A stretch of DNA of 64,000 nt, from assembly GCF_012844455.2 (NCBI RefSeq), contig NZ_JABBCQ020000007.1:124001-188000 (forward strand). Reading direction: 5' to 3'. Numbering within the stretch: position 1 is the first letter of the stretch; each line of letters begins with the position of its first letter. Below, in pieces: positions 11,544-58,789 of this stretch. The position numbers were made by a program, and so were the translations under genes. The notes below the pieces were generated by a model. That model saw only the letters and a list, made by a program, of their open reading frames with translations. It did not search any database and had not been told where the DNA came from. The DNA is from Comamonas suwonensis. Its GTDB lineage: Bacteria > Pseudomonadota > Gammaproteobacteria > Burkholderiales > Burkholderiaceae_C.

Positions 11544-12653
11544 TCAGGCCGCTGCTTCTTCGGCTTCCTGAGTGTAGGCAACCATGCCACGTGGGATGTA
11601 CTTGCCTTCGCACTGGTCCAGATACTCTGCAGCCTTGGCGCGGGGGTTGTAGAACTGCTTGTACCAGATGCGGGCTTTCAGGAAAGCACCGTCGCTGGGG
11701 ATGAACAGCGGGTTCAGGCAAGGCGCTTTTTGCGACCAGACTTCAAAGTCCTGTGCAAAGGCCAGACGGCTGGCTTCCTGGAACTGCTTGGCAGCCACTT
11801 CGTCAGCCTTGGTGGGCAGGCCGCCGTGTGCGGTTTTGACCAGCAGGTTGTGCCAGACCTTGATCTTGCCGTCCTCAATGGGGGTGTGCATGATCATCAT
11901 GAACGAGTTGAACATGCCGCTGACCTTGGAGACCAGAATGGCTGGGCCGTGATACCAGGTGTCTGTGTGCAGCATGTCGCTGGCGCCCCCTTCGCCCACC
12001 AGGGTACGGTGGCCGCCGCACTGGCGTTGAATGGCGTTGTGGGCCTTGAATTCGTTTTCAAAGCGCGCCACGGTGGAGCCGTGGATGGGGCTCAGGTGAC
12101 CGTAGTCGGCAATGTTGTCCACGACTTCCATCGGGTGCTGGCTCAGCTCGCCCAGATAGTCCCACTGGCCGTTGACATAGGTCTCATCATGCCAGTCGCC
12201 AAAAGTGGGCAGAGCGTAATCAGGCTCGCCACCTTCGGGATCAAACCAGACCCAGATCGCGCCGTACTGCTCGACCACTGTCCAGCTCTTGACGGCAGCC
12301 GCCGCAGGAATCGCACCGTCGTGGTAGGGAATGTGGTTGCACTTGCCGTCTGCACCAAAGCGCCAGCCGTGATAGGGGCAGCGAATGCCATCGCCTTCCA
12401 CGTTACTGCCACCGCCGTCGATCACCACGTAGCTGGTGGTGTTGGGCGCTGCCAAGTGGGTTTTCATGTGGGGGCAGTACGCGTCCAGCAGCACAACCTT
12501 GCCGCTTTCGCGACCGCGGTACATCGCAAAATCCTGGCCGAAGAAGCGCACCGCCACCGGCTTGTGGGTGTCGAGCGCCTTGGCCTCGGAAATCATGAAC
12601 CAGCCACGTGGGTAGGTAAATTCACCGAGGCGGTAGTCCTTCGTGGTTGCCAT
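11544..12653 (-). CDS. kshA: Rieske non-heme iron oxygenase, KshA-like (3-ketosteroid 9-alpha-hydroxylase oxygenase candidate)
   Basis: A 369-aa oxygenase component. The Rieske [2Fe-2S] ligands are C60-x-H62 and C92-x2-H95. The mononuclear iron site is DNIADYGHLSPIH with H186 and H191, and a later DFEVW supplies a candidate Asp. N-terminal YPRGWF and downstream CPYHGWRFG resemble actinobacterial KshA. The spacing between the two Rieske pairs is 29 residues, against about 17 that I recall for KshA, so there is an insert. ATG at 12653 follows GGAGAC; upstream in-frame codons lack a site. It would need a reductase, and a KshB-like one starts at 63653. The reaction, 9-alpha-hydroxylation opening ring B, is inferred; another ring hydroxylation is possible. 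Confidence 0.75.
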   Translation of the reverse strand: MATTKDYRLGEFTYPRGWFMISEAKALDTHKPVAVRFFGQDFAMYRGRESGKVVLLDAYCPHMKTHLAAPNTTSYVVIDGGGSNVEGDGIRCPYHGWRFGADGKCNHIPYHDGAIPAAAAVKSWTVVEQYGAIWVWFDPEGGEPDYALPTFGDWHDETYVNGQWDYLGELSQHPMEVVDNIADYGHLSPIHGSTVARFENEFKAHNAIQRQCGGHRTLVGEGGASDMLHTDTWYHGPAILVSKVSGMFNSFMMIMHTPIEDGKIKVWHNLLVKTAHGGLPTKADEVAAKQFQEASRLAFAQDFEVWSQKAPCLNPLFIPSDGAFLKARIWYKQFYNPRAKAAEYLDQCEGKYIPRGMVAYTQEAEEAAA

Positions 12654-12716
12654 TGCAGAAGTCTCCATATCTTGTTTTAGACACTGAATCTTCGCGCTGG
12701 GAGCCATGCTGCGCAT

Positions 12717-12730
12717 ACTCTGTTTGGACG
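12717..12730. promoter_or_regulatory. Cluster operator motif, site 3
   Basis: ACTCT-GTTT-GGACG, 64 bp upstream of the Rieske gene start. Unusually, the stronger half faces away from the gene. The surrounding gap (12654-13019) has no gene. It also holds a 10-bp inverted repeat (12982-12991 and 12999-13008) without a T tract. Confidence 0.35.
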
Positions 12731-13019
12731 AGTGAGTGCGACGCTTTGATCTGGCGCAAACCACCAAGGGTTTGCACTATGTTGAGTGTGAGTGCCTGCT
12801 TTTTTGTTCTGGGCGTTGGCGTATCGCGGTGTCAGGTCTCAATTTTTGCGCTTGGGGTTGACCGCTATCGTCCTGCTCCAGACATCAGGTCCGGGAGACG
12901 CTTACGCAGCTCGATGCACTTAAACATGCTCTGCTTCCTAATAGGGAGAGGGCTGCAGATCCTTGCTCCGTAGCCTTTTTGAGCGCACTGATTTGTCGTC
13001 AGTGCGCTGCAGCGGTGAT

Positions 13020-13879: not shown

Positions 13880-15250
13880 TTATGCGGATGCCGACTGCAT
13901 TTGCTGCAGGCGTTGCTTGTAGGGCTTGATCGCCAGTGCGAAGAACAGCACGGTCAACAAGAACATCATTGACACTCCAGATAGAGCCAGGCGCAGGCCT
14001 TCTGTGCCATGGGTCTTGGCAAAGTAGTCTGACAGCATGCCAGTGACCAGGGGGCCCACGCCTACGCCAAGCAAGGTGATAAAAAGATTGAGCACGGCAG
14101 CGGCCACGCTGCGCTCGCCGGCTCCAACCAGCTGGCTGATGGCGCTGTATGACAGCGTGGCAAACCAAGCACCGAAGAAGCCAAACATCAAAGCAAACAC
14201 CATGGCCACCGGTACTTTGATGCTGCCCAGCATCCAGAAGTCAGAGACAGGCCAGAAGAAGACGCCCAAGGCGGCGGGCACGGCGCAGAAGCTGCCAATG
14301 GCGGCCAGGCGCAGCTGCCAGCGGCTATCACGCTGGGTGAGCTTATCGGACAACCAGCCGCAGAACATGGCACCAACCACGGCGCCAGAGCCGCTGGCAA
14401 TACCAAAGACCAGGCCCGCGTGCGAAATGCTCATGCCGTGTATGCGAATGAAAAAGCTGGGTGCCCACACGCCATAGCCATAGCCAGCAATACCTGCCAT
14501 GCCACAGGCCAGGCAGATATTGCGCAGCGCCTTCATGCCCAGCAGGCGAAACACCTGCTTGAGCATGGGCTCACGTGCCGCATTGGCGACGGGCTTGGTC
14601 TTTGGCGCTTCATAAGCACCGCGAACAGGCTCTTTGACAAAAAAGTACACCAGCACGGCCAGGATCACTCCGGGTATGCCAAAAGCCAGAAACACCGCGC
14701 GCCAGCCGTAGTACTGGGCCACCATGCCGCCGATGACCAGGCCCAGCAGCGTGCCGAGGTTGGGGCCCATCATGAACAGGCTGATGGCGAAAGAGCGCAT
14801 CCTGGGTGGATAAGAGTCCGAAACGATGGAGATCGACGGTGCCATGCCCCCCGCTTCGCCCACCGCCACGCTCATGCGGGCGGCCAGCATGTGCCAGTAC
14901 TGAGTCGCAAACCCGCAAGCGGCTGTGGCCAGACTCCATACGCCGCAGCACACGGCGACGATATTGCGGCGGTTCTGCGTATCGGCCATACGCCCTACGG
15001 GAATTCCCAGTAGCGCATAAATCAGGCCAAAGGCCAGTCCCGTCAGCAGGCCCATCTGCGTGTCGGACGCTCCGAACTCCTGCTTGATCGGCTCCAGCAA
15101 AATAGAGAGTACCTGGCGGTCAATGAAAGAGAAAATATAGACCAGTGCAAGCAGGGCAAGACTCAGGTGAGTGCGCCATGTGACGGTGGGGGGCGAGGTT
15201 TGAGGGGTGTGCATGCGCAGCATCGTGAAGGTGGCTTTAGGTTGTGCCAT
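13880..15250 (-). CDS. MFS transporter, Spinster type
   Basis: About 456 aa and about 12 TM helices, paralogous to the carriers at 3588 and 9402. It has FSFIDRQVLSILLEPIKQE after helix 1, TQMGLLTGLAFGLIYALLG and VGEAGGMAPSISI. The start is uncertain: ATG codons at 15250, 15223 and 15214 are in frame and none has a clear Shine-Dalgarno. The 15250 start would abut the operator-like motif at 15251-15264, so one of the two downstream starts may be used. It heads a two-gene minus-strand operon with the SDR. It is an inner-membrane carrier, probably for a steroid or bile acid; substrate and direction are not determined by sequence. Confidence 0.87.
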   Translation of the reverse strand: MAQPKATFTMLRMHTPQTSPPTVTWRTHLSLALLALVYIFSFIDRQVLSILLEPIKQEFGASDTQMGLLTGLAFGLIYALLGIPVGRMADTQNRRNIVAVCCGVWSLATAACGFATQYWHMLAARMSVAVGEAGGMAPSISIVSDSYPPRMRSFAISLFMMGPNLGTLLGLVIGGMVAQYYGWRAVFLAFGIPGVILAVLVYFFVKEPVRGAYEAPKTKPVANAAREPMLKQVFRLLGMKALRNICLACGMAGIAGYGYGVWAPSFFIRIHGMSISHAGLVFGIASGSGAVVGAMFCGWLSDKLTQRDSRWQLRLAAIGSFCAVPAALGVFFWPVSDFWMLGSIKVPVAMVFALMFGFFGAWFATLSYSAISQLVGAGERSVAAAVLNLFITLLGVGVGPLVTGMLSDYFAKTHGTEGLRLALSGVSMMFLLTVLFFALAIKPYKQRLQQMQSASA

Positions 15251-37912: not shown

Positions 37913-37969
37913 CATTGGGAAAAGTTACTTTCATGCCCTATGTGGACTAGGCCTCTAGGGTCTGTCAGT

Positions 37970-37983
37970 AGTCTTCTCAGACG
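37970..37983 (+). promoter_or_regulatory. Cluster operator motif, site 8
   Basis: AGTCT-TCTC-AGACG followed by ATGG: perfect 5-bp arms, 127 bp upstream of the DUF1329 gene. It has the same half-sites as the 46483 site. Confidence 0.5.
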
Positions 37984-38109
37984 ATGGGTTTAAGACTCTG
38001 CTCAAGCAGAATGCAACTGCCTGCAAACGGCAAAACCAAGGGGTACGGCGAGGCATGAATGTCGTTTGTAGCACCCGTCAAAAAAAACTCTAGAACCTAG
38101 GAGACAGAG

Positions 38110-39489
38110 ATGAAGTTTGTGACAGCAAAGACTCCGCTCGCAGTGGCAGTGGGTTTGTTGGTGGCAACGTCGGTATGGGCGAAGGTACCGGCTAGCGAAG
38201 CAGAACAGCTGGGCAAAGAGCTGACTTGTGTTGGTGCGATCAAAGCCGGCAACAAAGAAGGCACTATCCCTGAGTTCACTGGCAAGTGGCTGGGCGCTCC
38301 AGCGGGCGTGGCGCATGTCCAGGCGAGCGGCAAGCATCCTGTCGACATCTATGCGGGCGAGAAGCCAATTCTCGTGATTACCGCCGAGAACATGGATAAG
38401 TACGCTGACAAGCTCAGTGATGGCCAAAAAGCCATGTTCAAGAAGTACCCCAAGACCATGCAAATTCCGGTCTACAAGGGACACCGTGATTTCCGCTATA
38501 CCGACGAGACTTGCGCCATCTTGAAGAAGAATGCGCTGGAGTCCGAAGTCGCTGCAGATGGCCTGAGCATCAAGGGCACTTTTGGTGCCATCAACTTCCC
38601 GATTCCTAAGACGGGCCAGGAAGTGATCTGGAACAACCTGCTGCCCACACGTGCCTACACGGAAACGATTATTCGCGACATGGCCAATGTGCTGTCCGAC
38701 GGCAGCATGAGCTTCGGCCGCATGGGCAACCGCAATCTGGACATGGTGAATATGCCGGAGAAGCTGGGCACGCCAGTGGAAGGTCCAATGGCCTACAGCA
38801 CCACCCGAGGCATGCTGCCCGAGCGTGAAAAAGGCGGCGTTACCAACTCCGTAGAACCCACCAATTTTGGCAAGGACAAGCGTCTGGCCTGGAGCTATGA
38901 CCCCGGTACACGTCGCGTGCGTCAGGTGCCCGAGTACGGCTTTGATCAGCCCATGACCGGCACCGGCGGCAAGATGACGATTGACTCTGATCGTCTGTTC
39001 AATGGCTCGCCTGAGCGCTACAACTGGAAGCTGTTGGGCAAGAAGGAGATGTATATCCCCGCCAACAACTTCAAGATTCACCAGGCGACTGTGAAGTACG
39101 CAGACCTGCTCAAGCCTGGTCACGCCAACCCAGAGTTCATGCGCTATGAGCTGCGCCGCGTATGGGCTGTGGAAGGCACGCTGAAGGAAGGCTTCCGCCA
39201 CCTCTATGGCAAGCGCGTTCTGTTTGTAGATGAGGACACCGGTCAGGCCGTGGCTTCCGATATGTATGACGCACGAGGTCAGCTCTGGCAGCAGGCCCTC
39301 ATCAACTACTACTACTCGTTCGATATCAAGGCTTGGCACGCAGGTACGTCCTTCTATCACGACCTGAATTCGGGCGGATACATGGGCTACAACTTGTTCC
39401 AGGAGCGCCCTCTGGGTCCCATCCTGAACAAGGGTGATCTGACTCCCGCCATGTTCACGCCCGAAGCCGCGCGCAACGCTGGTAACTAA
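38110..39489 (+). CDS. DUF1329 family exported protein
   Basis: A 459-aa protein with a signal peptide (MKFVTAKTPLAVAVGLLVATSVWA, cleavage after about residue 24). The mature protein matches the DUF1329 family I recognise from steroid, hydrocarbon and polyester-degrading proteobacteria: LTCVGAIKAGNKEGTIPEFTGKW near the N-terminus, and WSYDPGTRRVRQVPEYGFD in the middle. DUF1329 proteins are thought to be periplasmic or outer-membrane-associated LolA/LolB-like carriers, nearly always encoded beside a DUF1302 protein, as here 23 bp downstream. A role in moving hydrophobic substrate across the periplasm is inferred. Ribosome-binding site AGGAGACA precedes ATG. Confidence 0.87.
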   Translation: MKFVTAKTPLAVAVGLLVATSVWAKVPASEAEQLGKELTCVGAIKAGNKEGTIPEFTGKWLGAPAGVAHVQASGKHPVDIYAGEKPILVITAENMDKYADKLSDGQKAMFKKYPKTMQIPVYKGHRDFRYTDETCAILKKNALESEVAADGLSIKGTFGAINFPIPKTGQEVIWNNLLPTRAYTETIIRDMANVLSDGSMSFGRMGNRNLDMVNMPEKLGTPVEGPMAYSTTRGMLPEREKGGVTNSVEPTNFGKDKRLAWSYDPGTRRVRQVPEYGFDQPMTGTGGKMTIDSDRLFNGSPERYNWKLLGKKEMYIPANNFKIHQATVKYADLLKPGHANPEFMRYELRRVWAVEGTLKEGFRHLYGKRVLFVDEDTGQAVASDMYDARGQLWQQALINYYYSFDIKAWHAGTSFYHDLNSGGYMGYNLFQERPLGPILNKGDLTPAMFTPEAARNAGN

Positions 39490-39512
39490 GTTTTATCAAC
39501 GAGCAATTCACT

Positions 39513-41039
39513 ATGAAAAACAATATAAAGAAACTCACCCCCATTGCCGTGGCTGCGCTGCTGTCTCTGGGTATGGGTGCTGTTCACGCGGGGGAGACCA
39601 TTGAGCTGGGCGATGGCGTCAAGTTCGACTGGCGTCTGAACATGAGCTATGGCTTGGGTGTGCGTTTGGAGAATCCATCCCCGGTTCTGAATACCGACGG
39701 TAACAACAACTTCAAGAAGGGCTCCCTCACTGCGAATCGTCTGGGTGCTGTCTGGGAAAGCAAACTGTCCAAGGGCGACAGCGGCTTTGTGCTGAATGCC
39801 AGCACTTTCTATGACGACGTGTATCACGGCAGCAATGACAACAAGAGCCGTTTCATCAGCACGCCGGGTCCCGTCAATGAGTTCAACTCGGCGGCCAAGC
39901 GTTACGGTGGTGGCTACTCACGTCTGCTGGATACCTATGCCTACACCAGCTTTAACCTGGGTGAAAGCCGCGCTACCGTTCGACTGGGTAAGCAGGTCGT
40001 GAACTGGGGTGAGTCCAATCTGTTTGCCAATATCGCTTCGGCTCAAGGCCCTAGCGATGCGGCCAAGGCAGCCTCTCCTGGTGCTGAAGTCAAGGAAATC
40101 CTGCTGCCGGAAGATCAGATTTCGGCTTCTCTGGAAGTGAACCCCAAGCTGTCGCTGCTGGCGCATTATCAGTTTGGTTTCCATGAAACCCTGCTGCCTG
40201 CACCTGGCATGTACACCAGCACCAGCAATGCCTTGGGTCCAGGTGCATCCTGCCTGGGCGTCTACATGGGGGCGAACTGTGCAGGTCTTAAGCGTGGTAA
40301 CGATATTCGCCCCAGCAGCACTGGTCAGTGGGGCGTTGGTGGTCGCTTCCGCGTCACCGATGAAACCGAAGTCGGTCTCTACTACCTGAACTACAACGAT
40401 CGCACGCCATCTCTGGTGGTGAACATGAATGGCCGTACTCCTACGGGCTATCAGGTGCGTTATTTCGATGACATCCATATGGTGGGTGCAACAGCCAGCT
40501 CCACCTTCGGCAAGTTCTCCGGCTATACCGAAGTCAGCTATCGCAAGGGTACGCCTGTGCTCAATGGCTCTGGGACGCCTGTGCGTGGTGATGTGGTGCA
40601 GGGTAACGTGGGCGGTATCTTCAATATCGGCCGTACAGCGATTGCAGACGACATGTCTTTGCTGGCTGAAGTTTCGGGTTCGCGTGTGATGAGCGTGGCT
40701 GATGGCAGCAGTGTCGACAACCTGAACTTCAAGACTCGCAATTCGCTGGTGGCTGGTGCAACTTTGACACTGAGCTACCCCGGTGTTTTTGAAGGCTGGG
40801 ATCTGAACATTCCTATCAGCTACCAGTCGCAACTGCGTGGTCGCGCTCTGGTCGGCACCTTCGGTGGTGGCCAAAGCGACAGCCGTCTGAGCCTGGGTGC
40901 AACGTTTGTGCGCAAGAGCAATCTCGCGATCAGCGTTGCCTACATCAACTACCTGGGCAATCCATCTACGGATGCTCTGCGCGCACGTCCTCTGGCAGAC
41001 CGCGATCAGCTGTCCGTCACAGCCAAGTACTCGTTCTAA
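39513..41039 (+). CDS. DUF1302 family outer-membrane protein
   Basis: A 508-aa protein with a signal peptide cleaved after about residue 26 (AVHA-GETI). The mature chain is rich in alternating polar/hydrophobic strands and ends in SVTAKYSF; the terminal Phe is the outer-membrane beta-barrel signal. WRLNMSYGLGVRLENPSP at the start and VNWGESNLF near 160 are DUF1302 features. It is probably a porin-like channel for steroids working with the DUF1329 protein. The gene follows DUF1329 closely and a strong hairpin lies after its stop, so downstream hydrolase expression may be attenuated. Confidence 0.87.
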   Translation: MKNNIKKLTPIAVAALLSLGMGAVHAGETIELGDGVKFDWRLNMSYGLGVRLENPSPVLNTDGNNNFKKGSLTANRLGAVWESKLSKGDSGFVLNASTFYDDVYHGSNDNKSRFISTPGPVNEFNSAAKRYGGGYSRLLDTYAYTSFNLGESRATVRLGKQVVNWGESNLFANIASAQGPSDAAKAASPGAEVKEILLPEDQISASLEVNPKLSLLAHYQFGFHETLLPAPGMYTSTSNALGPGASCLGVYMGANCAGLKRGNDIRPSSTGQWGVGGRFRVTDETEVGLYYLNYNDRTPSLVVNMNGRTPTGYQVRYFDDIHMVGATASSTFGKFSGYTEVSYRKGTPVLNGSGTPVRGDVVQGNVGGIFNIGRTAIADDMSLLAEVSGSRVMSVADGSSVDNLNFKTRNSLVAGATLTLSYPGVFEGWDLNIPISYQSQLRGRALVGTFGGGQSDSRLSLGATFVRKSNLAISVAYINYLGNPSTDALRARPLADRDQLSVTAKYSF

Positions 41040-41060
41040 GCACTGCGACGAGCCAACCCC

Positions 41061-41088
41061 ACAAAAGCCCGGCTCTCCGGGCTTTTGT
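41061..41088 (+). terminator. Rho-independent terminator or attenuator
   Basis: ACAAAAGCCCGG (41061-41072) pairs with CCGGGCTTTTGT (41077-41088) with a CTCT loop, then GTTTG. It lies between the DUF1302 stop and the next ATG at 41111. Confidence 0.75.
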
Positions 41089-41110
41089 GTTTGAACGGGG
41101 ATGTAAACAA

Positions 41111-42214
41111 ATGCACATTCTGACAAAGACAATTGCCATGCCCCTGGGGGCTGTTGCTCTGAGCCTCTTGAGTTCGGCGGCTTGGGCTCAACACATGTTC
41201 GATGCTTTGCCTCCGTTGCCAAGAGTCGCTCCTTTGATGCCACCCACGGAACTGCGCAGCGAGACGCAGGGTGAAATTCGTTTCAAATCCAGCAGCCCAT
41301 ATGACCTTGATGTGTTGCTCAATCAGCCTGCCAAGGCAGAAGCGACGATGGGTATGGGCAAGCTGTTTTTGCCCAAGGGAGCCAGCGAGAAAAAACAGGT
41401 GCCAGCCATGGTGGTCCTGCCTGGTAGCGCTGGAGCCATTCCCGGACGTGAGAACGAAACTGCGCAGATGCTGGCAGACAACGGCATTGCTGCGCTGCTG
41501 GTGGATAACTTCAAGCCGCGTGGCATCAGCGAGGAGATGCCTTATGCCCTCAAGATCATGGGCACCTCCGAGTTCGATGCCGTGGCCGATGCTTACGCAG
41601 CGCTCAAGGCATTGAACAAACACCCTGCCATTGATGGCTGGCGCATTGGGGTGATGGGATTTTCCAAAGGCGGGATCGCGGCGCGTATGAGCATGGACGC
41701 ACGTATTCGCGACAAATTGGCACCTTTTATTCAGCCTTTTGCCATGCATGTGGACTTTTACGGTCCTTGCTACGCGCTGCTGCAGTCACAAAAAACTACG
41801 GGCTCGCCGCTGCTCAGCTTCAGAGCAGGAGAGGATGCATCGAACGACCTTGTTGCCTGTGCCCAGCAGGAAGCCATTTTGCGTAAAGCAGGCTCTGATG
41901 TCAGCACGGTGGTCTACGCCAAGGCAGGCCATGACTGGGAAAGTGACAAACCGCGCGAGATGACGAGCCGCCCCTACCTGGCGGGTTGCACGATTGAGTT
42001 CAATGACAAGTACTTTCCGGTCTTGAACGGTCAGCCATTGATTCCTGCAGGTGCTCAGCCTGATCGTCAGACCCGCTACCAGATTCGGGTGCAAAGCGGC
42101 AAGGCGCTGGGCGACTGCGTCAAGGTTGGTTATATCGCTGGTCGTGATGAGTCCGCTCGTAGCCTGGGGAGCAAGCAGTTGCTGCAGTTTCTCAAGGCAC
42201 GGTTTGAGATGTAG
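41111..42214 (+). CDS. Secreted alpha/beta hydrolase (dienelactone-hydrolase-like)
   Basis: A 367-aa protein with a Sec signal peptide ending near AAWA-Q (residue 26). The hydrolase core has VVLPGSAGAIPG near 102-113, nucleophile Ser185 in GFSKGG, a candidate acid Asp242 and His274 in KAGHDW. It would hydrolyse an ester or lactone in the periplasm or outside, possibly releasing a steroid from an ester; no substrate can be fixed. ATG at 41111 is 72 bp after the DUF1302 stop and just beyond a terminator-like hairpin, so it may be expressed by read-through. A terminator follows at 42236-42258. Confidence 0.82.
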   Translation: MHILTKTIAMPLGAVALSLLSSAAWAQHMFDALPPLPRVAPLMPPTELRSETQGEIRFKSSSPYDLDVLLNQPAKAEATMGMGKLFLPKGASEKKQVPAMVVLPGSAGAIPGRENETAQMLADNGIAALLVDNFKPRGISEEMPYALKIMGTSEFDAVADAYAALKALNKHPAIDGWRIGVMGFSKGGIAARMSMDARIRDKLAPFIQPFAMHVDFYGPCYALLQSQKTTGSPLLSFRAGEDASNDLVACAQQEAILRKAGSDVSTVVYAKAGHDWESDKPREMTSRPYLAGCTIEFNDKYFPVLNGQPLIPAGAQPDRQTRYQIRVQSGKALGDCVKVGYIAGRDESARSLGSKQLLQFLKARFEM

Positions 42215-42235
42215 CGCTTTCTGAACTCTGCAAAG

Positions 42236-42258
42236 GCCAGCTTAAAGCTGGCTTTTTT
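42236..42258 (+). terminator. Rho-independent terminator (plus strand)
   Basis: GCCAGCTT/AAGCTGGC stem (42236-42243 and 42245-42252) followed by T6. It ends the DUF1329-DUF1302-hydrolase transcript. Confidence 0.8.
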
Positions 42259-42287
42259 ATGCCAGATAAGCCGTTGGCGCTTATTTG

Positions 42288-42305
42288 ATAAGCGCAGGCA
42301 GCTAT
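42288..42305 (+). repeat. Dispersed ATAAGCGC..GCAGCTAT element
   Basis: ATAAGCGCAGGCAGCTAT, preceded by its own inverted repeat GCGCTTAT. Related copies are at 23505-23520, 23564-23580 and 49928-49945, all in 3' intergenic sequence. Confidence 0.45.
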
Positions 42306-42340
42306 GCATTTAGTAGTCCAGTTGGAAGTTGGAGGACATG

Positions 42341-42368
42341 AAAAAAGCCGCACAGCGAGCTGTGCGGC
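42341..42368 (-). terminator. Rho-independent terminator (minus strand)
   Basis: Stem GCCGCACAGC/GCTGTGCGGC (42347-42356 and 42359-42368). On the minus strand it runs into T6. It ends the Ycf48-RND-SnoaL operon. Confidence 0.85.
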
Positions 42369-42388
42369 CTGATCGTTGATGGAAGTTT

Positions 42389-42853
42389 TCAGGACTTGGG
42401 TGCAGGCTGGAGCACTGAGCGATCACCAATCTCCAGCAGCATGGTCATGCTGCGCTTTTGAATGCGCCAGCCTTGCGGCAGCTGCAGCCATTCGTCTTCA
42501 TAAAAGCCAATGGCGTCATAGCGCAGATGAGCGCGCTCACCCAGCCCTTGATGCACTGCGCGCACCTGCATTTTGCTGCGCGGGCGGGCCGGGTTGCTGG
42601 CATCCACTTCCAGGTTGCCCAGCAGGTGCTGGGTGGGGCCGCAGCCGTCGAGGTGTGTGCTGATCATATGGCGGACCCCGGCCACACCTTCGCAGGTGTA
42701 GCCGCCGCCATAGATTGTGGTGCAGTCAGGTGTGAAAACCTGCTGCAGCAAGTCCCAGTTGCGTGTGTCGCATGCCGTGGCATAGCGAGTCAGGGTCTGG
42801 GCCAGAGCATGCTCGAGAAGAAGCTGCTCCAGCGTGCTTGCTGCAGTCCTCAT
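42389..42853 (-). CDS. SnoaL-like (NTF2-fold) protein
   Basis: A 154-aa protein of the NTF2-like cone fold: an N-terminal helix pair (LEQLLLEHALAQTLTRYATACDTRNWD), then FTPDCTTIYGGG and a beta sheet ending WRIQKRSMTML. It resembles the SnoaL_4 group of small dehydratases and isomerases, and His/Asp candidates (HMISTHLDG) line the expected cavity. It could act on a steroid ring or side chain. Its ATG overlaps the RND stop codon (ATGA type), so it is translationally coupled as third gene of the Ycf48-RND operon. The exact reaction is unknown. Confidence 0.8.
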   Translation of the reverse strand: MRTAASTLEQLLLEHALAQTLTRYATACDTRNWDLLQQVFTPDCTTIYGGGYTCEGVAGVRHMISTHLDGCGPTQHLLGNLEVDASNPARPRSKMQVRAVHQGLGERAHLRYDAIGFYEDEWLQLPQGWRIQKRSMTMLLEIGDRSVLQPAPKS

Positions 42854-45342
42854 CACAGTTTTCCGTTCACGGACGACTGGGGCTCGGGCTTGAGCATGCC
42901 GCCCGCATGGCTGATGCCACCTGTGCTGCTGGGGCTGGCTGCGGCTTTTGTGCCTTGCTGCTTTTGCATGCGCTTGGCGCGGGCCTTGGCTTCAGCCGGG
43001 CCCACATTCAGCCAGGCCGCCATGGCGGGCAGCAGGAAGATGGCTCCCAGCATGTTCACCAGGAACATGAAGGCCAGCAAGATACCCATGTCGGCCTGGA
43101 ACTTCAGAGCCGAGAAGGCCCAGGTACCCACGCCAATCGACATGGTCAGCGCTGTAAAGATGGCGGCATTGCCGCGCTGGCGCATGGCCTCATAGAAAGC
43201 CTCGCGTAGCGAGATGTCGCGCTCGCGCAGCTCGTGCTGCATGCTCTCGAACAGGTAGATGCCGTAATCCACGCCCACACCCACACCCAGTGCGACCACG
43301 GGCAGCGTAGGAACCTTCAGGCCAATGCCCAGCATGGCCATCAAGGCATTGCAGAGAATGGAGACGATGGCCAGAGGCACGACGATGCACAGCACGGCAC
43401 GCCAGCTGCGGAAGGTCAACCAGCACAGCAGTGTGATGGCGCCGAAGATGGAGCCCAGCATTTGCACTTCAGCGTGCTCAACAGCCTCATTGGTCGCGAC
43501 GGCCACACCGGCGTTGCCGCCAGCCAGCAGGAACTTGACGTTCGGCGTCTTGTCCGCGGCGATGAAGTCACGCACTTCATTGACCACATGGGTCAGTGTC
43601 GCGCCTTCGTGGTTCTTCAGGAAGACCTGCAGGTTGATGACCTTGCAGCCTTCGGTGTTCAGACCCAGATCAGGCGAGAGTGCTTTGGCACCGGAGCGCA
43701 AAGACGCTTCCGTGCGCTGCAGAGCAGCCCAGCGGGGATTGCCTTCGTTGTTGCTGGATGCTGCAATCTTGGCCAGGCCGGAGACAGTAGAGACCGATTG
43801 AACGCCATCCACGCGGCGCATGCGGGCGTCAAAACGCTCGACGGCATTCATCACCTGCCAGTTCAGGCAGCTTTCTTCGAGGTTGGAGGTTTCCACGAAG
43901 ACCGACAGCACATCCATACCAATGGAGTAGTTGCTGATGATGTTGTCGTTGTCGCGGTTGTAGCGCGATTCGGCGCGCAACTCGGGAGCGCCAGTGCCCA
44001 CGTCACCTGTCAGCAGATTTCGAGACTCGTAAGTGCCCACGGCCAGCAGCACCAGCGACACCGCCAGCGTCAGCAGAGCGGGGCGCGATTCGGCCAGACC
44101 CGACAGCTTCCACCAGATGGGGTTGCGGCCGTTGGATGTCGAAGAGGGCGCTTGCATCGCCTTCTTTTCCAGACGCAGATTGGCCAGCACCGCAGGCAGG
44201 AAAACCTTGTTGGTGATGATCATCAGCAGCACGCCCATGCAGGCGGTCAGGCCCAGTTCATGCACGATGGGGATGTCGATCAGCATGATGACCATGAACC
44301 CCAGGGCGTTGGTCAGCAGCGCCAGTGCACCGGGAATGGCCAGCTTGCGAATTGCGTTCTCGGCGGCGAGCTTGGAGCTCAAGCCGGCGCGCACATCATG
44401 CTTCCATGCACCTGTCATCTGCACCGCGTGCGAGACGCCGATGGAGAAGATCAGGAAGGGCACCAGAATCGACATGGGGTCGATGCCGTAACCAATCAGC
44501 GGCAAGATACCCAGCAGCCAGATCACGGGCAGCAAGGCCACAGCCAGGCCCACCACGGTGAGGTTGGTGGACTTGGTGTACATGCGCAGCATGATGGTGG
44601 TGATCACGAACGCGATGGCGAAGAACGTCATCACTGTGCTCAGGCCGTCCATCACATCACCCAATACCTTGGAGAACCCAATGATGTGGATGGAGATGTC
44701 CTTGCTTTCAAACTTGCTGCGAATCTCTTCGAGTCGCTGGGCGACCTGGTGATAGTCCAGCTTTTCGCCGGTCTTGGGATCCACTTCCAGCAAGTCGGCG
44801 CGCACCATGGCGGACTTCAGGTCGTTGCTGACCAGCGAGCCAATCTGGCCGGACTTGGCCACGTTGGAGCGCACCTTGGCAAGACCTTCCTCGTTGGCTT
44901 CAAAGCGAGAGGGAATCAGCACCTCGCCCACATAGCCTACTTCGGTGATCTCGATGTACTTCACATTCGGGGTGTACAGCGAATACACCTGGCCGCGATT
45001 CACACCGGGGGTGAAGAACACCTCGTCCGTCACACCGCGCAGCGCATCCAGAAATTCCTTGTTGTAGATGTCGCCCTGCTGGCCCTTCCACTCCACGCTC
45101 ACCAGAATGCGGTTGGCACCCGAGAAGGTGCTGGCGTGCTTGAGGAAAGCCGTCATGTAGTCATGACGCATGGGAATCAGCTTGTTGAAGCCGGGGTCCA
45201 GATGGGTGCGCGTGGCAGAAATGGCCAGCAGTACCGTGGCAATCAGCGTCAGAACGACGATGGATTTGCTCCACGAAATCAGCCAGCGCGCGGTCGCTGC
45301 AATCATCCGGTCCAGTCGGCTGGTGGGTTCGCTCAAAGTCAT
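42853..45342 (-). CDS. RND-superfamily transporter (HAE3/MMPL-like)
   Basis: An 829-aa protein with TM1 at about 20-42, a large periplasmic domain, five clustered TM helices (about 225-400), a second periplasmic domain and five to six further TM helices (about 640-790). LVPFLIFSIGVSHAVQ and LGVGVGVDYGIYLFE are the paired TM4/TM10 motifs of RND carriers; DYG in the second supplies the proton-relay Asp. It belongs to the two-domain type that transports lipids, hopanoids or sterols. Its ATG overlaps the Ycf48 gene stop. Placed opposite DUF1329/DUF1302, it is a strong candidate for steroid movement across the envelope. Import versus export is unknown. Confidence 0.87.
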   Translation of the reverse strand: MTLSEPTSRLDRMIAATARWLISWSKSIVVLTLIATVLLAISATRTHLDPGFNKLIPMRHDYMTAFLKHASTFSGANRILVSVEWKGQQGDIYNKEFLDALRGVTDEVFFTPGVNRGQVYSLYTPNVKYIEITEVGYVGEVLIPSRFEANEEGLAKVRSNVAKSGQIGSLVSNDLKSAMVRADLLEVDPKTGEKLDYHQVAQRLEEIRSKFESKDISIHIIGFSKVLGDVMDGLSTVMTFFAIAFVITTIMLRMYTKSTNLTVVGLAVALLPVIWLLGILPLIGYGIDPMSILVPFLIFSIGVSHAVQMTGAWKHDVRAGLSSKLAAENAIRKLAIPGALALLTNALGFMVIMLIDIPIVHELGLTACMGVLLMIITNKVFLPAVLANLRLEKKAMQAPSSTSNGRNPIWWKLSGLAESRPALLTLAVSLVLLAVGTYESRNLLTGDVGTGAPELRAESRYNRDNDNIISNYSIGMDVLSVFVETSNLEESCLNWQVMNAVERFDARMRRVDGVQSVSTVSGLAKIAASSNNEGNPRWAALQRTEASLRSGAKALSPDLGLNTEGCKVINLQVFLKNHEGATLTHVVNEVRDFIAADKTPNVKFLLAGGNAGVAVATNEAVEHAEVQMLGSIFGAITLLCWLTFRSWRAVLCIVVPLAIVSILCNALMAMLGIGLKVPTLPVVALGVGVGVDYGIYLFESMQHELRERDISLREAFYEAMRQRGNAAIFTALTMSIGVGTWAFSALKFQADMGILLAFMFLVNMLGAIFLLPAMAAWLNVGPAEAKARAKRMQKQQGTKAAASPSSTGGISHAGGMLKPEPQSSVNGKL

Positions 45343-46343
45343 TGTTTCGCTCCTTGGTCAGCGGATGCGGCTGCCTTGGCCTGAGATGGAGGGAAGGGCT
45401 GCAAGCCTGCGTCGCTGGAAATCCAACCGCTGTCAGGGCCGGTCAGCACGATGTCGGTCAGGGTTGCGCGGCCTTTGGCGCGCTGCAGCGTGAAAGTCTT
45501 ACCGCCGTCCTTGCTCATGCCCAGCATGCTGCCCTGGCCGACGAGAACAATGGTTCCGTCTTTTTCCTGGGCGTGGCCGAAGAAGGAGATGGGGGCCTGA
45601 ATCGTGGACTTGATCCACTGCTCGCCTGGTGCGGTCTGCACAAATGCGTTGCCGCGCATGCCGTAGATCAGCCAGCCACCTTCGCGGGTAGACATGGCGT
45701 TGTAGAAGGAGCCGTTGTAGAACTCGGGCTCAATTTGCCATGTCTCGCCAGAGTCCGTGGACTTGATGACTAGGCCGCGCTCGCCCACGATCAGCCAGTT
45801 CTTGCCATCTTCAGTGCTGGCAATGCGGTTCATGTGTTTGTCTTCGACTTCGGCAGGCAGCGTCAGCGGCCCCCAGGTCTGGCCGTTGTCCTTGGAGGTG
45901 ATGGCGCGGCCAAAAGCGCCGACGCTGATCCAGTCACCTGAAGGCAGGCGTGCAATCGACATCAGCGGCTCGCCGTTTTCTTTGGAGAAAGCGACTTCCT
46001 CCCAGGTGCTGCCAGCATCCTTGGTACGCAGCATCCAGCCTTCGTGACCCACGGCAAAACCGGTTTTCTTGTCGGGTGCGAAAGCAATGCTGACGAGCAG
46101 GGCCTGGCGGTCCTGGCTGAGCTTGGCAGAGGTCCAGGTCACGCCTTTATCGTCAGAGTAGAGGATTCCACCCAGAGCACCGGCGGCCAGCAGCCTGTCG
46201 CCCACCTGAGTGACGGTGTTGAAGTGGCTGCGCTCAACGCCAATCGTTGTGGGGGCCAGTGGGGGTGGGGTGCGAGGTGCAAAGGCGAGCGCAGAGGCAA
46301 AGGCCACCAATGCTGCTGCGCCGATACCGACGGCTGTTTTCAC
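45339..46343 (-). CDS. Ycf48/BNR-repeat beta-propeller exported protein
   Basis: A 334-aa protein with an N-terminal signal or anchor helix (MKTAVGIGAAALVAFASALAFA), then repeated blades of the form ILYSDDKGVTW, MLRTKDAGSTW, AITSKDNGQTW, VIKSTDSGETW and MSKDGGKTF. This is the Asp-box/BNR propeller of the Ycf48/Hcf136 family. Such proteins often sit beside MMPL/RND and DUF1302/DUF1329 genes; they are thought to be periplasmic adaptor or assembly factors. The stop overlaps the RND ATG. The promoter region carries an operator-like motif 85 bp upstream, shared with the divergent aldolase gene. Confidence 0.86.
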   Translation of the reverse strand: MKTAVGIGAAALVAFASALAFAPRTPPPLAPTTIGVERSHFNTVTQVGDRLLAAGALGGILYSDDKGVTWTSAKLSQDRQALLVSIAFAPDKKTGFAVGHEGWMLRTKDAGSTWEEVAFSKENGEPLMSIARLPSGDWISVGAFGRAITSKDNGQTWGPLTLPAEVEDKHMNRIASTEDGKNWLIVGERGLVIKSTDSGETWQIEPEFYNGSFYNAMSTREGGWLIYGMRGNAFVQTAPGEQWIKSTIQAPISFFGHAQEKDGTIVLVGQGSMLGMSKDGGKTFTLQRAKGRATLTDIVLTGPDSGWISSDAGLQPFPPSQAKAAASADQGAKQ

Positions 46344-46441: not shown

Positions 46442-46482
46442 TTTGCTCTGAGAATTAGGGGTATGTACTGGGCCGGTTTTTT

Positions 46483-46496
46483 AGTCTCTACAGACG
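46483..46496 (+). promoter_or_regulatory. Cluster operator motif, site 10
   Basis: AGTCT-CTAC-AGACG followed by ATGG, 60 bp upstream of the aldolase ATG at 46556. The divergent gap therefore has one motif per direction. Confidence 0.55.
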
Positions 46497-46555
46497 ATGG
46501 ATTCAGTCCGCTTCATTCCGACAATGAATGAACACTTTCTTGGTAAGGGAGATAT

Positions 46556-50914: not shown

Positions 50915-53014
50915 ATGGCATTAAGGTATTCACCGCTGGCCGCGGCATTGGGGCTGGCTTTTTCTGGCGCAGCGTGGGCGCAGCAAGCATCGGAAGTGAC
51001 ACTGGGGGAGGTGCAGGTTCGCAGCGATCGCCAGCTCGATCCCAGCTACAACCCGCCTACGGCAACGAGCGCAACCAAGATTGAGGCACCGCTGCGCGAT
51101 ATCCCTCAGACCGTGAATCTGGTGCCGCAGAGCCTGCTGCGTGATCAGGTCGCGCAGTCCATGCAAGATGCCCTCAAAGCCGTGCCTGGCGTGGGCCTGT
51201 CTCATGGCGATGGTCAGCGCGATCAGGTCACCATTCGCGGCTTCTCAGCCATTGCCGATCAGTTTGTGGATGGTTTGCGCGATGACGCGCTGTACTTCAG
51301 GGACTTGTCCAATATTGAGCAGATTGAAGTGCTCAAAGGCCCTGCGTCGGTGCTCTATGGGCGTGGCTCATCGGGCGGATTGATCAACCGCATCACCAAG
51401 AAGCCGGGAGGCAACTTCAGCGAAGTGGGTCTGACACTTGGGCGCTGGAACCAGCGCCGGGGCGAGTTCGACCTGGCCCGTGCACCAGAGGGCGGTGTGG
51501 TGTCTTATCGCCTGACCGGCGCCGTCGAGCGCGCCGACAGCTATCGTGACCAGCAGTTTCTGGATCGCAAGGCAATGGCCGCATCAGTGTTGATCAAACC
51601 CAGCGCCGACACCAGTGTGCTGCTGCAGGCCGACTATCTCAAAGACAGCCGGTTGACGGATTTCGGTATACCCGCATATCAGGGCAGGCCCGTCAACGTG
51701 GCCCCGGGCACCTATTACGGCGCGGCGAATGCCAGGGATGTGGATGTGAGCAGAGCCGAGGTGGCATCGCTGGGTGCGACCTTGAATCACCGTATCAGCG
51801 ACAGCTTGTCGCTGCGCAATGCATTCCGCTACTACGACTATTCGCTGGAAAGAAGCAACACGCTGGTCGGTTCGGTCAATGAGAAGGCGATGACTGCATC
51901 GCTGACCCGGGGTGATCTGCAGCGTGACGAAAGCGGCTTCTTCAATCAGACCGAGCTGACGCAAAAGCTGGAGCTGGCGGGGATGAAGCATCAGCTGCTG
52001 TATGGCTTTGAATTCGGTCGCCAGAGCAAGGAGCTGATCTCATACAGCCGGGCCAATGTGGCGACCGTCTCGCTCTTGAATCCGGTGCTGCCAACCCTGC
52101 CGCGGCGCATTGATGGCAAGCCTTCGGCAGACAATCAAAGCGTCTTCAAGGTGGCCAGCGTATACCTGCAGGACTTGGTCACCATTACCCCACAGTGGAA
52201 GGCTCTGGCGGGCGTGCGTTACGACCGTTTCCAGCAGGACACGCATGAGCGCCAGCCCGGCAAGCCGGATCTGGGTCGCACGGACACAGCCTGGAGCCCG
52301 CGCATCGGTCTGGTCTATCAGCCATCGTCTGCGTGGTCTTACTATGCTTCGTGGAGCAAGTCCTTCCAGCCCTCGGGTGAAACCTTTGCGCTGGCTGCGA
52401 GCAATGCGCAACTGGCACCGGAGAAGACGACCAGCCAGGAGGTTGGTGTCAAGTGGGATCTGCCGGATGGCAAGGCGTCGGTCACAGCTTCGCTGTTCAA
52501 GCTGGAGCGCACCAATATCAAGAGCACCGACCCCACAACCAATACCGTTGTGCCTCTGGGTGTACAGCGCACCAATGGCTTGGAGCTGACCTTTGCGGGT
52601 GAAATTGTGCCCTCCTGGCAGATCTGGGCAGGCTATGCCTTCCTTGACGGTGAAATGACGACATCGCCAGCTGTTGATGCAGGCCAGCCCGTGCAGGGCA
52701 AGCGTCCCACGCTGACCGCCAAGCACAGTGCCAACCTTTGGCTAACCAAAGCGCTGGGTCACGGCTTTGGTCTGGGCGGGGGGCTGAACTATGTGGGGGC
52801 CCGGTTTGCCAATCCAGGTAACACTGTGACCTTGCCTGGCTACGTGACGGTGGATGCCATGGCCTACTACCGCATGGGTGTCTGGGATGTACAGCTCAAG
52901 CTCAACAACCTGCTGGATCGCCGCTATATCGTCGCCGGTCATGGCAGCTCGCCCAACCTCAACCTGCCAGGTGCGCCGCGCTCTGCCCAGGTTGTGGCGC
53001 GCTATCGCTTCTAA
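50915..53014 (+). CDS. TonB-dependent siderophore receptor
   Basis: A 699-aa outer-membrane receptor. A signal peptide ends near AAWA-QQ (residue 23). A TonB-box-like stretch and plug domain (about 45-160) include IPQTVNLVPQSLLRDQ, VTIRGFSA and LKGPASVLYGRGSSGGLINRITKKP, all hallmarks of ferric-siderophore receptors. The barrel ends in VVARYRF with C-terminal Phe. It imports a ferric siderophore with energy from TonB/ExbBD. Iron supply would support the Fe-S and Rieske enzymes nearby, but this cassette looks inserted rather than native. Expression is expected to be Fur-repressed. The PepSY gene follows 3 bp later. Confidence 0.93.
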   Translation: MALRYSPLAAALGLAFSGAAWAQQASEVTLGEVQVRSDRQLDPSYNPPTATSATKIEAPLRDIPQTVNLVPQSLLRDQVAQSMQDALKAVPGVGLSHGDGQRDQVTIRGFSAIADQFVDGLRDDALYFRDLSNIEQIEVLKGPASVLYGRGSSGGLINRITKKPGGNFSEVGLTLGRWNQRRGEFDLARAPEGGVVSYRLTGAVERADSYRDQQFLDRKAMAASVLIKPSADTSVLLQADYLKDSRLTDFGIPAYQGRPVNVAPGTYYGAANARDVDVSRAEVASLGATLNHRISDSLSLRNAFRYYDYSLERSNTLVGSVNEKAMTASLTRGDLQRDESGFFNQTELTQKLELAGMKHQLLYGFEFGRQSKELISYSRANVATVSLLNPVLPTLPRRIDGKPSADNQSVFKVASVYLQDLVTITPQWKALAGVRYDRFQQDTHERQPGKPDLGRTDTAWSPRIGLVYQPSSAWSYYASWSKSFQPSGETFALAASNAQLAPEKTTSQEVGVKWDLPDGKASVTASLFKLERTNIKSTDPTTNTVVPLGVQRTNGLELTFAGEIVPSWQIWAGYAFLDGEMTTSPAVDAGQPVQGKRPTLTAKHSANLWLTKALGHGFGLGGGLNYVGARFANPGNTVTLPGYVTVDAMAYYRMGVWDVQLKLNNLLDRRYIVAGHGSSPNLNLPGAPRSAQVVARYRF

Positions 53015-53017
53015 AAA

Positions 53018-53731
53018 ATGAGCGCTATACGTCCATCGATAAAGGCGGAACCGGGGATGAGCGGTGAACCGATCACGCCGCGACCGGCAAAGTCCGGTGG
53101 CGGACATTTGTTTGTTCCGGCGCGCTGGCATCGGCCGGTCGTTCTCAAATGGCTGCGCCGCGTCCATGCCTGGCTGGGTATCTGGGGTGCCGCTCTTGGC
53201 TTGTTGTTTGGCGCCACGGGCCTGCTGCTCAATCATCGGGCCACGATGAAGATACCCGGCCCTGCGTATGACAACACCCAGTGGCAGCTCAGTCTGGCGC
53301 AGCAGCCTGCAGATATTGATGCACTGGTGCGGCAATTGCAGCAGGAGCTGGGGATTAGCAAACCACCGCATCAGAAAAAGGTGGAGGCCTCAGGCCCCAC
53401 ACCCTGGCCCGGTGCCAGGCAGCCTGAGCGCTGGCAGATTGCCTTTGCTGTCCCAAAGGCCACGGTCAATGCAGAATATTGGGTGGGCAACCAGTCGGTA
53501 TCGAGCAAGCGCATGGACCCCAATTTGCTGGCCAAGCTGAACCGGCTGCACATGGCAACCGGTGCATCTGCGGCCTGGATCTTGCTCACAGACACCCTGG
53601 CCGGTGCCTTGATTGCACTGTCGTTGACGGGCATCTTGCTCTGGACGAAGTTGCATGGCTGTCGCTTATTGGCTTTGGGTATTGGGGGAAGCAGTCTTGG
53701 ACTTTTGTTGTTGCTTGGCTTCACAGCTTGA
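53018..53731 (+). CDS. PepSY-associated transmembrane protein
   Basis: A 237-aa inner-membrane protein. Basic WLRRVHAWLGIWGA leads into TM1 (about 52-72, with GATGLLLNHRA), then a periplasmic domain of about 100 residues with KLNRLHMATGASAAW, and two TM helices at the C-terminus (about 185-207 and 215-236). This is the PepSY_TM layout often paired with siderophore receptors, where related proteins act as ferric-siderophore reductases. It starts 3 bp after the receptor stop; an alternative ATG 39 bp inside has a better GGAACCGGGG context. The chain is shorter than four-TM PepSY_TM reductases. Confidence 0.78.
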   Translation: MSAIRPSIKAEPGMSGEPITPRPAKSGGGHLFVPARWHRPVVLKWLRRVHAWLGIWGAALGLLFGATGLLLNHRATMKIPGPAYDNTQWQLSLAQQPADIDALVRQLQQELGISKPPHQKKVEASGPTPWPGARQPERWQIAFAVPKATVNAEYWVGNQSVSSKRMDPNLLAKLNRLHMATGASAAWILLTDTLAGALIALSLTGILLWTKLHGCRLLALGIGGSSLGLLLLLGFTA

Positions 53732-58673: not shown

Positions 58674-58687
58674 TAGTCTGATCGGAC
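58674..58687 (+). promoter_or_regulatory. Cluster operator motif, site 12
   Basis: AGTCT-GATC-GGACG followed by ATGA, 103 bp upstream of tesA1, in the 279-bp divergent gap with tesA2. Confidence 0.55.
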
Positions 58688-58789
58688 GATGAATGGGAAT
58701 TTGCATGGTGAGAGCATTCCTGTCATAGGCAAAAAGGCCTTGCCCACCACACCACAAGCCGTCCGGTGGAGCGGCAACTGGAGACCTGA

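Follow-up and report, generated by a model that had tools for sequence, protein, structure and literature searches.

The closest described system to the one considered here, a set of envelope genes within a steroid-degradation cluster of Comamonas suwonensis, is AmeABCD of Castellaniella defragrans. Encoded in a monoterpene island, it comprises a DUF1302 protein (AmeA), a DUF1329 protein (AmeB), a COG4447/Ycf48 protein (AmeC) and an HAE3-type RND transporter (AmeD); insertion into ameB impairs growth on monoterpenes (PMC6394551). In Pseudomonas putida, growth on Tween 20 depends on PP_0765 (DUF1302), PP_0766 (DUF1329), PP_2018 and PP_2019; mutual contacts, partly weak, are predicted for them, and a substrate transport system has been proposed (PMC10866462). 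The four families are placed together in a regulon study, which points to a role in coping with toxic aromatics and solvent stress (PMC6449761), while anaerobic benzene degraders highly express a “Nanopod” cluster of a porin-like protein, a DUF1329 protein, a YCF48-related protein and an MMPL transporter; the four families are also linked, at second hand, to phenanthrene (PMC13101534). The stretch analyzed here (the window: 64,000 nt of contig NZ_JABBCQ020000007.1, positions 124,001 to 188,000) encodes members of all four (Table 1).

We read these genes as a dedicated steroid branch of the Ame-type envelope system, which would traffic steroids between the two membranes with net flow inward, and give this reading a probability of about 0.56. 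That the system handles steroids is likely; inward net flow is the most likely direction, preferred but unproven. Gene content, an RND clade, an operator motif and copy numbers were established here, and induction by testosterone is taken from a published transcriptome.

Table 1. Envelope genes and operator copies in the window (positions counted from its first nucleotide).
Feature	Position	Strand	Evidence and remarks
Operator copy TAGTC-N5-DGACGAT	37969..37985	+	Exact match; 141 bp upstream of DUF1329 start
DUF1329, LolA-fold periplasmic carrier, AmeB-like (putative)	38110..39489	+	PF07044 E 7.9e-108; signal peptide by eye; Cys40/Cys135
DUF1302 outer-membrane beta-barrel, AmeA-like (putative)	39513..41039	+	PF06980 E 1.1e-118; C-terminal Phe
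Secreted dienelactone-hydrolase-like serine hydrolase, accessory	41087..42214	+	PF01738 (DLH) E 3.6e-11
SnoaL_4/NTF2-like protein, probably cytoplasmic enzyme, accessory	42389..42856	-	PF13577 E 1.5e-22
MMPL-type RND transporter, putatively HAE3, AmeD-like	42853..45342	-	PF03176 (MMPL) E 3.6e-28, PF12349; sterol-sensing-domain similarity
Ycf48-like beta-propeller, AmeC-like	45339..46343	-	PF14870 (PSII_BNR) E 2.5e-20; N-terminal anchor/signal by eye
Operator copy, Ycf48-RND-SnoaL operon / divergent thiolase and ChsH2-MaoC genes	46482..46498	+	Exact match; 139 bp before propeller start
Operator copy before HsaA-like gene (58790)	58674..58690	+	Exact match; ties cassette to ring-degradation genes

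The analysis bears out all six open reading frames (ORFs) and, by Pfam matches, the family assignments of the preliminary description, as well as its two facing operons: DUF1329-DUF1302-hydrolase converges on Ycf48-RND-SnoaL. The operator motif that it had noted for both operons is real, an exact copy preceding each. It had the last three genes overlapping by ATGA junctions, which is so for propeller and RND, whereas RND and SnoaL join at GTGATG, which contains the stop. The hydrolase ORF opens with GTG at 41087; translation more likely starts at the ATG at 41111, which precedes a signal-peptide-like stretch. The RND protein has 829 residues, matches Sterol-sensing/Patched domains and is 93% identical to those of two C. 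testosteroni strains; the propeller matches Ycf48 structures at E 4.2e-17. The context is a 9,10-seco steroid cluster, with relatives of KshA (KshA_C, E 3.9e-56), KstD, HsaA and HsaB in the window (NCBIfam matches below strict cut-offs: KstD-type E 7.6e-153, HsaA E 4.5e-113, HsaB E 1.1e-36), TesD-G type domains (DmpG, acetaldehyde dehydrogenase, FAA hydrolase, alpha/beta hydrolase), a ChsH2-type protein and a CasG-like ligase scoring under its cut-off. The earlier remark that no Mce system is present in the window also holds: the domain tables of the scanned window proteins contain no Mce/MlaD match, the remaining genome not having been searched. The proposed tie between envelope system and steroid cluster has gained support from position, operator, phylogeny and published induction. 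What has to be given up is the view that the DUF1329/DUF1302/propeller combination was uncharacterized: an AmeABCD deletion mutant, fitness data and predicted complexes in P. putida and a regulon grouping exist, and these papers and the benzene one describe the four-family combination.

The likeness to AmeABCD extends to all four families, the RND protein being a putative HAE3 member, and to their location in, and induction with, a catabolic island for a hydrophobic substrate. The window differs in its steroid cluster, its two convergent operons, its extra carriers, the hydrolase and SnoaL genes, and a steroid clade of its own. The four genes do not form a single cassette of conserved order here, but one-direction cassettes occur in relatives (loci L126 and L039), so the window layout is a variant. 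(Handles denote genomes, G, with G000 that of the window; loci or stretches, L; and contigs of the window's own genome, C.) The P. putida set likewise combines DUF1302, DUF1329, a periplasmic protein and an RND protein, numbered as two loci with a joint fitness phenotype; its substrate is Tween 20, and the passage on it makes no link to steroids (PMC10866462). The “Nanopod” cluster belongs to benzene-degrading Desulfobacterota and has extra universal-stress genes (PMC13101534). Among NCBIfam models the RND protein best matches TIGR00921 (HAE3), with 191 bits against a cut-off of 351.9. Assignment as HpnN was rejected (NF052374, 38.1 bits, cut-off 1100; TIGR03480, 74.9, cut-off 751.85), as was assignment as the sterol transporter BstA (NF045600, 20.2 bits, cut-off 1400); nor does any of the six proteins have, at E 0.001, a membrane-fusion or TolC-type domain as in HAE1 tripartite efflux (AcrAB-TolC). 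Mce4 is an ABC/Mce system whose proteins are unrelated to the DUF1329/DUF1302/RND set. In mycolic-acid actinobacteria it too is proposed to pass steroids through a two-membrane envelope (PMC4810484).

In a maximum likelihood tree of 58 RND proteins, a 22-row clade (bootstrap 100, approximate likelihood-ratio test 99) contains all 19 loci marked as steroid-related; none of the 36 rows outside is so marked, and the other three clade rows are contigs shorter than 6 kb. Marker labels were set by hand from tblastn matches of steroid genes near each locus; L036, L041 and L044 were labeled by Ltp/ChsH2 side-chain markers only, L135 by KstD only, and L091 through its neighbor stretch L090. The tree omits fragments (L042, L045, L109), duplicates (L033, L125) and the distant third RND of G126 (L123), and does not include AmeD. 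Counted by identity, with a threshold chosen after the marker results were known and near-duplicates included, 21 of 26 loci at 58% or above have steroid markers (the five without are four short contigs and L091), against 1 of 38 below it: L102, which lies outside the clade and has a TesE-like gene only. A steroid-specific RND clade thus exists on sequence evidence, although the family as a whole is not steroid-specific. It spans Burkholderiales, Pseudomonas panipatensis and a Vibrio alfacsensis plasmid, while the only RND in G127, which belongs to the same genus as the window, is a distant one (39%); the pump therefore follows the pathway rather than the species tree.

Plasmids offer an independent check, with a similar picture. 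Among 40 plasmid records with the RND family, KstD is found in all 7 with at least 58% identity (three Vibrio, two Caballeronia, one Burkholderia and one Cupriavidus; four genera) versus 2 of the 33 others. On the V. alfacsensis plasmid pYa108 (L126), the four cassette genes run in one direction and adjoin a flavin reductase (HsaB-like), TesE-G type genes, a Rieske protein and a KstD-like gene. This likely reflects cross-class transfer of the pathway together with its transporter. Two of the three Vibrio plasmid records bearing the steroid cluster come from fish. Neither the hydrolase nor the SnoaL protein has a tblastn match (E 1e-10) near the cassette in Vibrio or Pseudomonas steroid loci, for which reason we consider both accessory; among the loci compared, Comamonas alone has the hydrolase close to the cassette. 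On plasmids, genes with the annotation prolyl oligopeptidase family serine peptidase do lie close to cassettes outside the steroid clade (L137, 3731-4906; L142, 12368-13528), and pairing with a hydrolase may thus be found again elsewhere in the family.

Co-occurrence was tabulated in 300 genomes from the window's order, one set serving for every search, with cut-offs of E <=1e-40 for RND and E <=1e-100 for KstD and with weaker DUF1302 and DUF1329 matches dropped at 130 and 180 bits. RND is found in 33 genomes, strong DUF1302 in 36 and strong DUF1329 in 32 (at plain E 0.001, DUF1302 in 76 and DUF1329 in 66). By hand tabulation, all 32 genomes with strong DUF1329 also have DUF1302 and RND; four have strong DUF1302 without RND, and one (G115) has RND with neither strong partner. 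KstD occurs in only four genomes, all of which have RND, so 29 of the 33 RND genomes lack it at this cut-off. These counts indicate that DUF1329, DUF1302 and RND form a unit that is not limited to steroids; the idea that the families as a whole are steroid-specific was rejected, with KstD in just 4 of 33 RND genomes. The co-occurrence check suggested in the preliminary description therefore gave a divided answer, whole families going mainly with other pathways and the steroid clade not. A class-wide sample of 362 genomes has KstD (E <=1e-120) in five: the window's own, G090, G618, G314 and G442, the last two with weaker matches than the rest. In G618 the pump relative (62% identity over the larger piece) lies about 83 kb from KstD on one contig, in a one-direction cassette ordered Ycf48-RND-DUF1302-DUF1329.

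The envelope genes share an operator with ring-degradation genes. The core pattern TAGTC-N5-DGACGAT, which was picked after the upstream region of the Vibrio cassette had been inspected and so with part of the data in view, has 4 exact matches in the window (0.01 expected) and 11 in the 4.7-Mb genome (reversed controls, 0). Across the loci it has 45 matches in 22 steroid-related ones (587 kb), many from close relatives and including the orphan-carrier loci L048 and L112 (2 of the 45), versus none in 41 others (773 kb), which are cassettes or cassette parts of other genomes plus the KstD stretch of G227; the reversed pattern has none in either set. A longer pattern, AGTCTNNNCAGACGATGGRTT, was too strict and the core was used instead. 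Copies precede DUF1329, the propeller/thiolase pair (kept in most relatives compared) and the HsaA-like gene; one on the Vibrio plasmid is 134 bp before DUF1329. Not every match need be functional, since the fourth in the window (24329) falls within an enoyl-CoA hydratase coding sequence. Four of the 11 genome matches are without an identified gene: C44:152696 and C65:97373 fall within ORFs, and C6:92311 and C65:93803 are 224 and 158 bp before unidentified ORFs. Another (C11:44501) is 20 bp before an ORF that resembles, by eye, an acyl-CoA ligase. A looser form, T[AC]GTC-N6-GACGAT, gives 20 genome matches versus 4 in reversed controls, overlapping palindromic copies being counted twice. A palindromic copy, TCGTC-N6-GACGA, lies 154 bp before a LuxR-type (GerE) gene on contig C25 (L163, 4713-6130), whose product is a candidate regulator of the steroid regulon. 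TeiR/TesR, described as a LuxR-type activator of testosterone degradation, is the obvious candidate for operator binding. The operator is new here: a limited look at the literature found no published description of the motif.

The clade and the operator bear on one alternative, namely that the cassette is an induced module for envelope stress or solvent tolerance, which would preserve the membranes when hydrophobic compounds are present without itself moving steroids. The assignment of the four families to toxic aromatics and solvent stress (PMC6449761) fits this, as does the presence of most family members in genomes without KstD, but a pathway-tracking clade and an operator common to ring-degradation genes are hard to explain on such a basis, and we think it improbable.

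Published transcriptome data agree with a steroid role for the cassette. In C. testosteroni JLU460ET, GM003860-3865 are strongly induced by testosterone, with log2 values at 3 h of 8.41, 8.36, 7.81, 6.99, 8.30 and 7.91 that fall to 2.4 or less, or to non-significance, at 13 h; they are labeled, in order, glycosyl hydrolase, exporter protein, 3-phenylpropionate/cinnamic acid dioxygenase, dienelactone hydrolase, hypothetical and MucB/RseB (PMC10637631, Table 4). Gene order and labels suggest that these correspond to the six window genes, and the MucB/RseB label may be explained by a weak fold match of our DUF1329 model to RseB/MucB. The authors of that study assign steroid transport to MFS and TonB proteins (PMC10637631), and it is conceivable that steroids enter by diffusion, through MFS proteins or through the TonB receptor of the cluster, leaving the cassette dispensable. 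The window does have MFS genes (9360, 13880, 48753) and a TonB receptor gene (50915); three JLU460ET MFS genes rise by log2 4.7-5.8 after 3 h on testosterone (PMC10637631), and Caenibius tardaugens uses a TonB-dependent receptor (PMC8399759). The JLU460ET TonB gene, however, reaches only log2 2.57 at 3 h, versus 7.0-8.4 for the cassette genes (PMC10637631), and neither type of protein provides a periplasmic carrier, making this explanation very unlikely. The TonB-dependent receptor gene, followed by one for a PepSY-TM protein (50915-53731, between the cassette and tesG), looks like siderophore uptake, and among the relatives compared a receptor match is listed only in L028 and L043. The MFS gene at 13880-15250 (-), with a weak OATP match, is near KshA (11544-12767 (-)) and has a looser operator copy (15249) at its start; on the Vibrio plasmid an MFS gene directly precedes the Rieske gene (L126, 5586-8058). 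The MFS gene near KshA could provide an inner-membrane step.

Returning to the steroid-trafficking reading, we infer its ligand, route, energy source, direction and carrier exchange as follows. A steroid would cross the outer membrane through the porin-like DUF1302 barrel and be picked up by the LolA-fold DUF1329 carrier, which would shield it in the periplasm. The carrier would then exchange it with the RND pump, held with the Ycf48 propeller at the inner membrane, where the pump would draw on the proton gradient for loading or unloading the carrier at the membrane's outer face, giving net flow inward toward the KstD/Ksh enzymes.

Structure models are in keeping with some of these parts. The best alignments of the DUF1302 model (mean predicted local distance difference test score, pLDDT, 67; predicted template-modeling score, pTM, 0.68) are to substrate-specific porins of the OprD/Occ type (OccK2, Z 22.7 over 307 residues, root-mean-square deviation 3.1). 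The DUF1329 model is poor (mean pLDDT 53, pTM 0.59), so that the similarity of its residues 165-453 to the LolA family (LolA3, Z 8.8; 4z48, a solved DUF1329 structure, Z 6.8) is only supporting. Ser304, His305 and Gln308 in one half of the RND protein, together with Asp692 and Tyr693 in the second half, are invariant in all 60 aligned sequences (near-duplicates included) and could, from their position, form a proton path. PDB sequence searches with DUF1329, DUF1302, SnoaL and the hydrolase gave nothing useful, one returning implausible weak matches only and SnoaL having no relative at E 0.1. Weak DUF1329 matches also led to MMPL-LolA fusions of 1052-1085 residues in four further genomes of the order (L175, 2530-5784; L176, 4496-7687; L177, 1981-5136; L178, 3942-7124; LolA_like E <=5.4e-52); further such matches lie in frames of about the same size. 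Like the window cassette these fusions pair pump and carrier, here in one chain, and at the three loci where neighbors were scanned all match DUF1302, one below cut-off and also matching FimV_N; they differ in being fused and in that LolA_like (PF17131) scores far above DUF1329. The occurrence of these fusions suggests that carrier and pump work in contact.

Direction is where the main, and serious, rival arises: export or detoxification, with the RND pump taking steroids or toxic ring intermediates from the inner membrane and passing them via DUF1329 out through DUF1302. Export was the conclusion drawn for AmeABCD, whose deletion lowers monoterpene tolerance and raises Nile Red accumulation in cells treated with carbonyl cyanide m-chlorophenylhydrazone, and the HAE3 relative HpnN moves a lipid, hopanoids, outward (PMC6394551); for the steroid cluster of P. 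stutzeri Chol1, a review puts the RND gene forward as a candidate for efflux (PMC8399759). When Nile Red efflux was followed in real time, though, wild type and mutant were nearly equal (PMC6394551), and growth on the substrate itself suffers when DUF1329 or the set is lost (PMC6394551, PMC10866462), which toxicity could also explain; the modeled barrel, moreover, appears porin-like rather than a TolC duct. Because loss of parts impairs growth on the substrate in relatives and the outer-membrane part is porin-like, inward flow is preferred, and export is considered unlikely.

Besides the AmeABCD and HpnN precedents, several observations weigh against dedicated inward steroid trafficking. The exporter AlgE aligns with the DUF1302 barrel model at Z up to 20.8, nearly as well as the porins, so barrel type does not settle direction. 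No transport assay for the steroid clade was found. One genome, G227, has KstD on another contig and an RND outside the clade; G314 and G442, two of the five KstD genomes searched, have no pump relative at E 1e-20, and 17 Sphingobium/Novosphingobium KstD plasmids lack such an RND on the same record. The core operator is missing from two G264 stretches and the Burkholderia arboris locus, even the looser form is missing from the G618 cassette stretch, and no operator within one mismatch precedes 5 of 15 steroid-locus DUF1329 genes or 2 of 8 orphan copies of this gene.

Those orphans give Comamonas an unusual inventory. The window's genome encodes four DUF1329 proteins with a single DUF1302 and a single RND of this type (six other RND matches, in open frames of 1049-1105 aa, score <=34 bits), and its relative G090 six, one and one. 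The DUF1329:DUF1302:RND ratio is 1:1:1 in 26 of the 32 three-family genomes, the other exceptions being G057 (4:4:3), G108 (2:2:2), G126 (4:3:3) and G254 (2:1:1, a fragmented assembly). The eight orphans of the two Comamonas genomes join 15 steroid-locus copies in a 23-row clade (100/100) of a 58-row DUF1329 tree (L033, L041 and L125 omitted). A cysteine pair of the Cys40/Cys135 type is present in all eight, and absent in the Burkholderia/Caballeronia/Cupriavidus/G264 branch of the clade. When the 300 bp before DUF1329 genes were scanned with the looser operator form, exact copies were found for five orphans, with one, two (C33) and four mismatches for one each, and for 10 of 15 steroid-locus genes; none of 35 other DUF1329 genes that have 250 bp or more of upstream sequence did better than two mismatches. 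The C33 copy was rejected as support, as 7 of those 35 also reach two. One orphan on contig C7 (L049, 9993-12320), with an exact operator, directly precedes a 3beta/17beta-hydroxysteroid dehydrogenase gene (1HXH, E 8.1e-152); a literature search for stdC as a gene next to this dehydrogenase gene found no papers. In C. testosteroni JL40 the first DUF1329 gene has a second (66%) as its neighbor, and there are operator copies close by.

One barrel and one pump with four or six DUF1329 carriers, as in these two Comamonas genomes, is new here. In the proposed scheme several carriers, the majority sharing the operator, would serve the single barrel and pump, presumably for different steroids. A tentative extension, which we find possible though somewhat doubtful, is a hub-and-spoke arrangement in which the four to six carriers, encoded at scattered genome sites and for the most part controlled by the one steroid operator, are interchangeable and each handles a different steroid or ring-opened intermediate.

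Substrate uptake by bile-acid degraders has been described as still largely unknown (PMC8399759), and steroid uptake systems outside mycolic-acid bacteria as not identified (PMC4810484). Apart from a pangenome paper, we found no literature joining DUF1329 with steroids, in a search of mainly open-access papers. The present work names candidate steroid-trafficking genes for Gram-negative bacteria, so that a long-standing question is now testable; the extra DUF1329 carriers could escape single-gene knockouts. Since the families are tied to use of monoterpenes, Tween 20 and benzene, the answer would also apply to hydrocarbon degraders and to biotechnology for removing steroids, and, if the hub-and-spoke arrangement is true, DUF1329 would be what sets specificity throughout the Ame-type family.

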